From contig JAPPDF010000009.1 of NCBI GenBank assembly GCA_028875575.1, positions 1 through 64,000 of the forward strand: a stretch of DNA of 64,000 nt, read 5' to 3'. Positions 59,843-64,000 of this stretch are shown one piece after another; within the stretch, counting starts at the first letter, position 1; every line of letters begins with the position of its first letter. Below the pieces are notes generated by a model, which saw only the letters and a list, made by a program, of their open reading frames with translations, was not told where the DNA came from and ran no database searches. The position numbers and the translations under genes were made by a program. The stretch is from Acidobacteriota bacterium (GTDB lineage: Bacteria; Acidobacteriota; Terriglobia; Versatilivoradales; Versatilivoraceae).

Positions 59843-60982
59843 ATGAAGGTCAACATTCTTTCCGATCGGGCGGTTTCCGCAAACCTGGCCGCGGGCGACA
59901 GCGGCAGCGCCTGCGCCTATCCGCTCTCCATCCGCCTCAAGGACGGGTCCCTCTGCTGCGTTTACCGGCAGGGATCGAGCAAGCACAGCGTCGACAGCCT
60001 GCTGCTGATGCAGACCTCCGAGGATCGGGGCGAGACCTGGTCGGCTCCGCGGGTGGTGTTTGACGGTCTCAAGCGCACCCCTCCCACCACCTTGGTCTCC
60101 CCCGGCCTGTGTCAGACCGCCGATGGGCACTTGATGGTAATTTTCGGGTCCATCGAGGGATTGAAGCCGGGGGTCTACATGTTCAGCCGGGAGGGAAGAG
60201 CCCTGCCGCATCCGCTCCTGGTGACGCGCAGCGCCGACGGCGGGCAGAGCTGGTCGGAACCGCGGCCGGTTCCCCATCCGACCTTGCCCACGGCGGGAGT
60301 CACCTCCCGGCCCTTCCCGCTGGCCGATGGCACGATATGCATACCCCTGGAGTACAAGCTGGCTCCCACCGGGCCCAACGGGTCGGCCATGATTTTCTCG
60401 CGGGACAACGGTCAGACCTTTGATCCCTCCGTCGTGGTGGCGGCCGACCACTCGGGGGAGTTGAATCTCTGCGACGCCCGTTACGACCTCCTGCCTGACG
60501 GACGGATCCTGGCGCTGATCTGGACCTTTCGAGAGGACACCGAGGAGACCATCGAGGTCCGCCGCTCTTATTCCTCGGATGGAGGACAGACCTGGACGGT
60601 GCCCGAGAACATCGAATTCGTGGGGCAGGTGACGGCGCCGGTGGTGCTTCCCGACGGCTCGGTGGTGGCGGCCACCAACTATCGTCTGCCGCCGGAGGGG
60701 ATTCGACTTTGGGGATCGCGGGACGGCGGGGAAAACTGGGCCGGATCGGGTCCCATTCAGATGTGGGATCCTGTCGCGAACCGCATGGTGGGGGAGTCGG
60801 TGGTCCCGCCGAAGGAGGCTGTTGCGGATGCAGGAGGGCTTTGGGAAGCCCTGGACCGCTTCACCTTCGGAACACCCGACCTGGTGCTGTTGAGCGACGG
60901 GAGCCTGCTGATGACCTATTACGCCACCCTGGACGGCATCACCCACGTCCGGGCTTGCCGCTTCCGGGTGGTGTGGGATTAA
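59843..60982 (+). CDS. Sialidase-like (Asp-box) protein, no leader
   Basis: 379 residues: a six-bladed propeller with about four Asp-boxes (SEDRGETW, SADGGQSW, SRDNGQTF, SSDGGQTW, SRDGGENW), and Arg-containing strands PLSIRLKDGSLCC and SRPFPLADGTICIPLEY. No signal peptide is visible, in contrast to the upstream relative, so it is likely cytoplasmic. Start supported by CCGGAGG 7 bases upstream of the ATG. Lies 26 bases after the exported relative and is probably co-transcribed. True sialidase activity is unproven; other exo-glycosidases have the same fold. Confidence 0.86.
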   Translation: MKVNILSDRAVSANLAAGDSGSACAYPLSIRLKDGSLCCVYRQGSSKHSVDSLLLMQTSEDRGETWSAPRVVFDGLKRTPPTTLVSPGLCQTADGHLMVIFGSIEGLKPGVYMFSREGRALPHPLLVTRSADGGQSWSEPRPVPHPTLPTAGVTSRPFPLADGTICIPLEYKLAPTGPNGSAMIFSRDNGQTFDPSVVVAADHSGELNLCDARYDLLPDGRILALIWTFREDTEETIEVRRSYSSDGGQTWTVPENIEFVGQVTAPVVLPDGSVVAATNYRLPPEGIRLWGSRDGGENWAGSGPIQMWDPVANRMVGESVVPPKEAVADAGGLWEALDRFTFGTPDLVLLSDGSLLMTYYATLDGITHVRACRFRVVWD

Positions 60983-60992
60983 CGGCGGCAGG

Positions 60993-61907
60993 TCAATCGA
61001 CCTCCCATTCACTCAATTCCGGGACATTCTCGCGAAGGCTGAGCCTGGTCCACATGGCCGAGTGATCGCTCCACCTCTTTTTGCGCCATTCGTGGTAGTA
61101 ACCGCAGTCCACGATCTCGAAGTGCCTTGAGACGAACGTGTGGTCGAAGCATCGTGGGTTCTTGAGCGTCCTATGGGTGACGGGCGTGGCTGTTTCGACG
61201 CCGTGACGGTCGCGATAGGCATCGCGCAGACCATGCTGGGATGCGCCCGCGAGGACTGAACGCACACCATTGACCCGCTCCATATTTGGGCGCCGGTCTT
61301 TGAACTTGGTGTGGTAGCCCCGGATGGACGTACCCTTGTCCTCGTGAATCTTCTCCCCAAAGGGAACGATCTGTCCGGACTGCCTGAATCGCTTGGGCTC
61401 ATTGAAGTCGCCGGTCAGGATGCGGGGAGAGTCATTTCCCCGGCGGAGCGCCGCCGACAGCACGTTGAAAGTGTCGATCTTTCGCCAGCCGTTGCCGGAA
61501 CCGTTGGGGATGTGGACGGTGAACAGGTCGATCTCCTGCCCGTCGGGCAAGAACACCTTGGCTCGCGCCAGTAGTTCCGGAAAGGGTGCACTACGGCGCC
61601 AGCGGCTGCCTGCGGCCGTTACCGGCCAGCGGCTTGCAATCAGGCACTGGTAGTCTTTCGGCTTCACCCTTTTCAACCTTCCGACCCGCGGCGGCTTGCG
61701 CATGGCCGTGGGCGGGACGTTCTTGCCGCTGCAGTGGGCGTGGACCAGACCAATGTCGGCGAGGCGGTGCGCTACATCGTCCGCGAGGCTCGTCTTTACC
61801 TCCTGCAAGGTCAGGATGTCCGGGCTTACGGACCGGATCGCCTCGATAACGTTTTGGAGTTGGCCGGGCAGCGATTGAAAGTGGATGTTCCAGGAGAGGA
61901 GCAGCAT
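60993..61907 (-). CDS. Endonuclease/exonuclease/phosphatase family protein
   Basis: 304 residues of the EEP fold: Asn7 in SWNIHF, metal ligand Glu36 in LQEVK, His132 (VHIPN), Asp167 and Asn169 in TGDFNEP, and the C-terminal Asp/His pairs in FDHTFV (about 254-259) and WSDHSAMW (about 279-286). Mg-dependent hydrolase of DNA, inositol phosphates or similar; the substrate is unknown. ATG 61907 follows GGAGA. A longer frame (to 61970) would overlap the divergent TAG-broken gene. Only 38 bases separate the two divergent start codons. It differs in style from the catabolic genes nearby, so may be an acquired gene. Confidence 0.86.
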   Translation of the reverse strand: MLLLSWNIHFQSLPGQLQNVIEAIRSVSPDILTLQEVKTSLADDVAHRLADIGLVHAHCSGKNVPPTAMRKPPRVGRLKRVKPKDYQCLIASRWPVTAAGSRWRRSAPFPELLARAKVFLPDGQEIDLFTVHIPNGSGNGWRKIDTFNVLSAALRRGNDSPRILTGDFNEPKRFRQSGQIVPFGEKIHEDKGTSIRGYHTKFKDRRPNMERVNGVRSVLAGASQHGLRDAYRDRHGVETATPVTHRTLKNPRCFDHTFVSRHFEIVDCGYYHEWRKKRWSDHSAMWTRLSLRENVPELSEWEVD

Positions 61908-61945
61908 GGGGCGGTCTCCATTTGTGTTGATAGGAGGAACAGCAT

Positions 61946-62215
61946 ATGGCGAACCAAAGACCCACGGCAACCGTACGGATCGGAACCGACAAAGCCGCGA
62001 TTTGGGAGAACTAGAGCAATGGCGAGCGCGCCCGCTACAACGTCAGCTTCTAGAGGCGCTACCGCGACGTGGAAGGGCAATGGAAGACGACGCAGAGCTT
62101 CGGCCGCAACGACCTGCTGGTTCTCGTCAAGGTCGCCGATCAAGTCCACTATCAGATTGTCGAGCTGGAACAGGTCGAAGACTCCAACGGCGGGGATGAC
62201 GATGAGCCGCCATAG
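61946..62215 (+). pseudogene. Small conserved gene interrupted by two in-frame TAG codons
   Basis: 90 codons in one frame: AGGAGG at 61932-61937, ATG at 61946, and a terminal TAG at 62213-62215. Codons 23 (62012-62014) and 36 (62051-62053) are TAG, and no frame change is needed. The translation, MANQRPTATVRIGTDKAAIW then EN-stop-SNGERARYNVSF-stop-RRYRD...WKTTQSFGRNDLLVLVKVADQVHY, keeps the layout of a small family seen in many bacteria and mobile DNA (AIWEN, YNVxF, SFGRxDLL, KVAD). Position 36 would fit Gln or Glu in such relatives. A perfect terminator follows at once. Probably a recent pseudogene; read-through is a less likely alternative, because TAG is a normal stop in this genome (at 12113, 20689 and 22937). 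Confidence 0.75.
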
Positions 62216-62221
62216 TTCGGC

Positions 62222-62249
62222 GGGCGGCGGGTTAATCCGCCGCCCTTTT
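62222..62249 (+). terminator. Intrinsic terminator after the TAG-broken gene
   Basis: Perfect 9-base stem GGGCGGCGG (62222-62230) and CCGCCGCCC (62237-62245), loop GTTAAT, followed at once by TTTTCTT. It sits 6 bases after the final TAG, so the small gene was a complete transcription unit. Confidence 0.85.
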
Positions 62250-62292
62250 CTTCACGCCTCGCTTCCTTTATCATTTAATTGGAGACACTCAA

Positions 62293-62511
62293 ATGACCGC
62301 ATTTGAAATAGCATCAATCCTCATAGGCGTTGGACAGATCGGCATTGTCTACTACGGGATCTCTCGCATGGTGCAGGCTAACGACAGCCGATCAAAGCTT
62401 CAGTCTGACCTCATGCAGCGACAGGAGCGGGATAGCATCCGGCGACACACCGAAACCATGACTGCCCTTCGGGAGCTGATCACCCGGACGGGCGGCAGCG
62501 GGACCGCGTGA
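62293..62511 (+). CDS. Small membrane protein (accessory)
   Basis: 72 residues: one transmembrane helix at about 5-25 (EIASILIGVGQIGIVYYGIS), followed by a charged, probably coiled-coil tail (SKLQSDLMQRQERDSIRRHTETMTALRELITR). GGAGA lies about 11 bases before the ATG. The shape resembles small phage or mobile-element membrane proteins but no family is recognised. It lies between a terminator and a strong terminator-like hairpin, so it has its own promoter or read-through transcription. Confidence 0.6.
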   Translation: MTAFEIASILIGVGQIGIVYYGISRMVQANDSRSKLQSDLMQRQERDSIRRHTETMTALRELITRTGGSGTA

Positions 62512-62565
62512 CGGCCGTTATTCGCCAGTCAGGCTCAGTGTGAAGATCAGGCTGCAGAGAACAAA

Positions 62566-62598
62566 GAAAAAGGCCAGTCAAAAACGTGACTGGCCTTT
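62566..62598 (-). terminator. Intrinsic terminator for the DUF1501 gene (bidirectional)
   Basis: 12-base perfect stem AAAGGCCAGTCA (62569-62580) and TGACTGGCCTTT (62587-62598) with a 6-base loop. On the minus strand the stem is followed by a T-rich tail (TTTTTCTTTG), fitting termination of the DUF1501 gene that ends at 62629. It also lies after the plus-strand gene ending at 62511, so it may serve both. Confidence 0.8.
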
Positions 62599-62628
62599 GT
62601 ATTGATACGATCTTCCGGGTGGAGTGGC

Positions 62629-64000
62629 TTAAGCCAAAACCTCCTTGATCTGCTTGCCGCCCAGGTCGGTCAGGCGTTTGAATCTTCCGGAGTGGTAGTA
62701 GGTTAGGCGCATGTCGTCCAGGCCCATGAGCCCCAGCATGGTGGCGTGCAGGTCGTGGGTGTGGTAGACGTCCTCGACGCACTTGATCCCCAGCTCGTCG
62801 GTTTCGCCCACCACCGTCCCGCCCTTGATGCCGGCTCCGGCCAGCCACATCACCATGGCGTTCTTGTTGTGGTCGCGCCCGGGACCGGTTCGGAAGAAGT
62901 CCATGGTGTTGTCGGCGGTCCTTCCGAATTCGCCTCCCCAGACCACCAGGGTCTGGTCGAACAGGCCCCGCTGCTTGAGGTCCTTGAGCAGGGCGGCGAT
63001 GGGCCTGTCGGTCTCCATTCCCCGCTTCTTGTGCTCTCCCGCGATGTTCTCGTGGGAATCCCAGCCGCCGCAGTAGATCTGCACGAAGCGCACGCCGCGC
63101 TCCACCAGGCGCCGGGCCATCAGGCACTTGCGCGCCATGGGCTCGGTGATCTTGTTGTCGAGGCCGTACATTTCCCGAATCTTCCGGGGCTCGCTGTTCA
63201 GGTCCAGGCTCTCGGGAACCGCTGCCTGCATGCGGAAGGCCAGCTCGTAGTTCCTCATGCGGGCCAGAAGGTTGGGGTTCCTGGGATGGACGTCCAGGTA
63301 GGGAGAATTGAGCTGGTTCAGCAGCTCCAGGTTCTTTTCCTGGCGCCGGGTGGTGACGCCCGCCGGAGGGCTCAGGTCGACAATGGGGTCCCCTTCCGAG
63401 TTGAGCAGCGTTCCCTGGGTGGCCGCCGGCAGGTAGCCGTTGGCCCAGTTGATGGGACCGCCGAAAATCCGGGTCCGGGTGTCGGGCAGCACCACGAAGG
63501 CCGGCAGGTTCTGATTCTCGGTTCCCAATCCGAAGACGGTCCAGGCCCCCACCGAGGGACTCCCCGGGATGGTGACGCCCGTGTTCATGAAGAAAGTGGC
63601 CGTGGTATGGGCTTCCGAGCTGGTGTGCATGGCCCGCACCACCGCAATGTCATCGGCGCAAGTCCCCAGCTCGTTGAACATGTCGGACATCTCCACGCCC
63701 GATTGCCCGTGCCGTTTGAAGGTGAAGGGGCTGCCCACGTACATCCGCTTTTCCAGGCTCCCATATTTGCGGAGGATGGGTTTCCCGTGGAGCTCGTTCA
63801 GCTTGGGCTTGGGATCGAAGGTGTCCATCTGGCTGGGAGCTCCCTGCATGAACATGAAGATGCAGGACTTGGCCTTGGGTGTGAAGTGGGGTTTCTTGGG
63901 GAGCAGGGGGTTCTCGGACCGGGCGGCGGCACCCAGCCGGCCGTCGCTGAAGAGCAGCGAGGAGAGGGCCAGGCTTCCCAGTCCCTTGCCGAAGCGGTAG
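62629..64000 (-). CDS. DUF1501 domain-containing protein (copy 3, partial)
   Basis: The reading frame stays open to the right edge, giving at least 456 residues, so the true start lies beyond the window. The visible 5' part reads GSLALSSLLFSDGRLG, followed by KAKSCIFMFMQGAPSQMDTFDPKPKLNELHGKP, the long-form DUF1501 pattern. The C-terminal part has IYCGGWDSHENI and VVWGGEFGRTADN...GRDHNKNAMVMWLAGAGIKGG, segments equivalent to those of the other DUF1501 proteins here. This version is more distant from the two at 9068 and 13687 than they are from each other. Function unknown. Confidence 0.92.
   Translation of the reverse strand, partial: YRFGKGLGSLALSSLLFSDGRLGAAARSENPLLPKKPHFTPKAKSCIFMFMQGAPSQMDTFDPKPKLNELHGKPILRKYGSLEKRMYVGSPFTFKRHGQSGVEMSDMFNELGTCADDIAVVRAMHTSSEAHTTATFFMNTGVTIPGSPSVGAWTVFGLGTENQNLPAFVVLPDTRTRIFGGPINWANGYLPAATQGTLLNSEGDPIVDLSPPAGVTTRRQEKNLELLNQLNSPYLDVHPRNPNLLARMRNYELAFRMQAAVPESLDLNSEPRKIREMYGLDNKITEPMARKCLMARRLVERGVRFVQIYCGGWDSHENIAGEHKKRGMETDRPIAALLKDLKQRGLFDQTLVVWGGEFGRTADNTMDFFRTGPGRDHNKNAMVMWLAGAGIKGGTVVGETDELGIKCVEDVYHTHDLHATMLGLMGLDDMRLTYYHSGRFKRLTDLGGKQIKEVLA

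Follow-up and report, generated by a model that had tools for sequence, protein, structure and literature searches.

Is a small bacterial gene whose frame is interrupted by two amber codons still expressed through them, or has it been lost? The question is raised by a 90-codon frame on the forward strand (61946..62215) of the window, by which we mean the whole 64,000-nucleotide stretch analyzed here, bases 1-64000 of contig 9 in a 4.49-Mb genome of 101 contigs. An AGGAGG motif (61932-61937) precedes the ATG at 61946, TAG stands at codon 23 (62012..62014, forward strand) and codon 36 (62051..62053, forward strand), and the genuine terminal TAG (62213..62215, forward strand) is followed by an intrinsic terminator hairpin on the same strand (62222..62245; 10 pairs, 9 of them G-C, with a T-rich tail). 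All these elements are present as the preliminary description had reported, which left the choice between a very recent gene loss and amber read-through or suppression. We favor, with a probability of about 0.92, a fragment of ~600 bp of plasmid DNA lying in the chromosome, its first gene now a pseudogene of a small plasmid-backbone protein and not read through.

The frame is more than a chance opening, as both sides of the stops, including the downstream part, match intact frames in other genomes, with E values down to 1e-37. The intact homologues (L008/L060, L009/L058, L010, L016, L002-L005) have no internal stop; those in sister species of the genus are 64-75% identical, reaching 75% in G005 and 74% in G002, which has two copies, and 65-67% in G006 and in a second G005 contig. 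Candidatus Versatilivorator (Acidobacteriota) is also among the relatives; its contig matches a G005 contig, L003 and L016 having the same gene. Farther copies occur in a Bryobacterales MAG, in Planctomycetota and in others, as well as on plasmids from planctomycetes and alphaproteobacteria (Phycisphaera, Singulisphaera, Paludisphaera, Labrenzia, Ruegeria, Tritonibacter).

The intact homologues carry sense codons at both stop sites, a comparison that the preliminary description had proposed. Codon 36 is TCG in the two nearest relatives and TCC in the next, and TAG is one C to A change from TCG. Codon 23 is AAG in G005, CAG in G002 and GAG in more distant relatives, each a single change from TAG, with the pairing slightly uncertain owing to an adjacent 3-base length difference (an additional codon follows immediately in the window). 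No other homologue match has an internal TAG, and one distant match elsewhere has a TAA. Both stops could be sequencing or assembly errors in this metagenome-derived genome, the gene itself being intact, and the sister assemblies do look metagenomic. However, two independent stop-making errors within 270 bases are unlikely, the other changes on the window branch share the pattern of the stops and the flanks are clean, which makes this explanation very improbable.

The window copy has changed at further codons as well. Across 68 codons, polarized with two outgroups, the window branch has 9 missense changes and the stop at codon 36 against 4 silent changes. The non-silent share is thus 0.71-0.73, compared with 0.72-0.76 expected under neutrality, a test of little power that rests on ~14 polarized changes. 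Several of the changes fall at well-conserved sites (V15D, A61V, A67V and S69Y in window numbering), some of them at nearly invariant family positions. Pairwise dN/dS does not set the window copy apart, being 0.48-0.58 between the window and its neighbors and 0.57 between the two intact neighbors, and the window copy retains each of the seven residues that are invariant in the family. Selection on the window copy has likely been relaxed, as judged from these sequence comparisons, which stop short of proof.

In bacteria, genes that stay under purifying selection despite an in-frame stop have been described and are recognized by conservation and a dN/dS below 1 (PMC7918605), and the small gene resembles them in keeping its full frame beyond an in-frame stop. 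This precedent, together with the intact frame, start, ribosome site and terminator and the fact that both stops are TAG, would favor amber read-through or suppression that yields a low level of full-length protein without a dedicated suppressor tRNA. In contrast with those genes, the stops here are private to one genome, absent from every homologue, and the branch is near neutral, with conserved sites altered by changes such as A61V, A67V, V15D and S69Y. The terminal TAG and hairpin of the window gene are shared by its two nearest relatives, so TAG is a stop in this small gene. Moreover, product lost at the first stop would be compounded by loss at the second.

The machinery of suppression points the same way. 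A covariance search of the genome, with anticodons assigned by ARAGORN, gave no CUA-anticodon tRNA among 44 tRNA genes, a gene in a gap between the 101 contigs being conceivable. Four matches to a pattern of CUA loop plus T-arm were discarded, as ARAGORN, drawing on other parts of each molecule, identifies them as tRNAs for Leu, Gln, Glu and Leu. Matches to pyrrolysyl-tRNA synthetase (TIGR02367) in the genome stayed far below the cut-off, at 28.6 and 21.1 bits, with similar ones in most control genomes, while RF1 is intact and above its cut-off at 517 bits. The preliminary description had also imagined suppression controlled by a nearby mobile element; no known mobile-element gene that could exert such control was found in the insert described below. 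As for the choice of codon, TAG makes up 43-48% of the single-base nonsense changes available from the nearest intact copy, so that two ambers out of two would arise by chance with a probability of ~0.18-0.23; at a chance of about 0.2, the double amber is no evidence for suppression. Taken together, read-through is as improbable as an error in the assembly. Even more so, to the point of being negligible, is the idea that TAG is a sense codon in the host genome, which has nothing in its favor besides the two codons themselves. Against it, RF1 is intact, a CUA tRNA was not found in the search above, the family of the small gene ends in TAG before its hairpin, and TAG closes 10 of the 37 long non-overlapping frames of the window, a mechanical pick in which a few may be spurious.

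The window aligns with the relatives of the small gene from 61931 onward, 15 bases before the ATG. Upstream of the small gene, a block of hundreds of bases is common to G002, G005 and G006, with G002 and G006 aligning from 325 bases before the ATG. This conserved block is absent from the window copy, whose usual upstream region has been replaced. The replaced region and the 9 further missense changes do not fit the impression in the preliminary description of a gene with no other visible decay.

The limits of homology delineate a plasmid-derived insert with a minimum extent of 61931..62511 on the forward strand, matching L058/L060 from 61931 to a last match at 62508. Besides the pseudogene and its terminator, it contains an open frame of 72 aa (62293..62511, forward strand), a shortened relative of the next gene in G002 with 45% identity. 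Compared with G003 and G004, chromosomal homology halts at 61911 and is back at 62539-62541, placing the true insert ends within 61911-61931 and 62511-62541, where visual inspection showed no clear target-site duplication. On the left, the chromosomal flank is a reverse-strand gene of the endonuclease/exonuclease/phosphatase (EEP) family (60993..61907, ATG at 61907; PF03372, E 2.6e-18), whose orthologues in G003 and G004 occupy the corresponding position. A long 5' extension of its frame to 61970, over the pseudogene, was dismissed as spurious, since homologous genes begin close to the ATG at 61907. The right flank (62629..63999, reverse strand), which we take to encode a DUF1501-type protein, is found at the same place across the genus with 97-99% amino acid identity. 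The gap between the flanking genes measures ~120 bp in G003 and G004 and ~720 bp in the window, and the surplus of ~600 bp is the part that matches the plasmid-like contigs of G002 and G005. Thus, the empty site and the origin of the surplus indicate that a piece of plasmid was inserted into a chromosomal gap. The earlier guess of an accessory island is borne out to the extent that a short stretch of mobile-element DNA lies between chromosomal genes.

The site itself shows further variation. The EEP gene (60993-61907) is accessory, too: G005 and G001 have no EEP gene at this site, and there the sialidase-like gene (59843-60982 in the window) is followed directly by the counterpart of the gene at 62629, so inserts have entered this gap on more than one occasion. 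The present insert is on the 5' side of the EEP gene, in the interval that separates the EEP ATG from the terminator of the gene before it (62569-62598), and may have displaced the EEP promoter.

In the nearest relatives, G002 and G005, a plasmid repA (PF04796, E 1.1e-8) shortly precedes the small gene, repA being upstream of the conserved upstream block, and in G002 a TraG/VirB4-type ATPase is encoded ~5 kb downstream of the small gene. Several of the distant homologues on plasmids are likewise near ParB, RepA, ArdC-like or relaxase genes. The host genome has no relative of the repA type found in G002 and G005. A phage origin of the small gene was considered and rejected, since phage records gave no match and viral contigs only three loci. 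Two side observations concern these plasmid regions. On contig C355 of G002, ~7.5 kb containing the intact small gene occurs twice (L058 and L059), 25.6 kb apart and with 99.3% identity, either a recent duplication or an assembly effect. Elsewhere in the genus, a broken relative of repA (L114, G005:C190:2047-2823) has one TGA and one TAG inside, a decayed plasmid gene.

In the sequence of events that we favor, ~600 bp from a repA-type plasmid, or from an integrated plasmid, would have been inserted into the ~120-bp chromosomal gap. The fragment would have brought the small gene together with the 15 bases ahead of its ATG, the terminator and the next small gene, arriving without repA and without the upstream region. 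Deprived of its usual upstream region and its plasmid context, the small gene would have been freed from selection and would then have gathered missense changes and two nonsense changes, such that any transcript would yield a peptide of at most 22 residues. The homology limits, the empty site, the intact relatives, the codons at the stop sites and the absence of a CUA tRNA are the data on which this account stands; promoter loss, the order of events and neutral drift are steps that we infer. The open downstream frame, the intact ribosome site and terminator and the seven invariant residues were counted against a pseudogene. The open frame at 62293-62511 and the retained hairpin would also suit a remnant with a non-coding or regulatory function, for instance one that provides the small gene downstream with a terminator and a leader. 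However, a scan limited to the sigma-70 consensus found no promoter-like site in 61800-62700, and such a role is less probable still than read-through or an assembly error.

The small gene is therefore a real but ordinary pseudogene, in line with the recent loss that the preliminary description had offered as one option: two single-step nonsense changes and no frameshift, in a mobile-element piece between chromosomal genes. It shares with other nonsense pseudogenes in horizontally acquired fragments the single-step nonsense codons, the upstream loss, the extra missense changes, the intact relatives elsewhere and the empty site in sister species. It differs from them in that its frame contains neither a frameshift nor a deletion, which gives the decay a young appearance. 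The locus is of little importance in itself, yet it illustrates clearly, on a small scale, a plasmid fragment that was captured by a chromosome and is decaying there.

The intact family holds some mild interest. Neither Pfam, NCBIfam nor PHROG gave a match of note to the small protein, and a sequence search of the PDB gave none. A predicted model of an intact relative, built from eight sequences, has a pLDDT of 89 and consists of four strands and a long helix. This order of strands followed by a helix is that of PC4-type single-strand DNA-binding proteins, and the top Foldseek row against the PDB is the PC4 homologue BPSL1147. The likeness is a lead only, drawn from a predicted model, as that match is not significant (E = 0.38, TM ~0.3), a second structural aligner gave no Z over 5.1, and the family differs from PC4-type proteins in its lack of a Pfam or PDB match by sequence. 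The repA, ParB, ArdC-like or relaxase genes in its vicinity suggest that the intact protein may serve in plasmid maintenance. This family, for which those three collections have no model (L060, L058, L003, L104-L108), recurs near genes of plasmid replication, partition or mobilization in three phyla or classes of bacteria, namely Acidobacteriota, Planctomycetota and Alphaproteobacteria.
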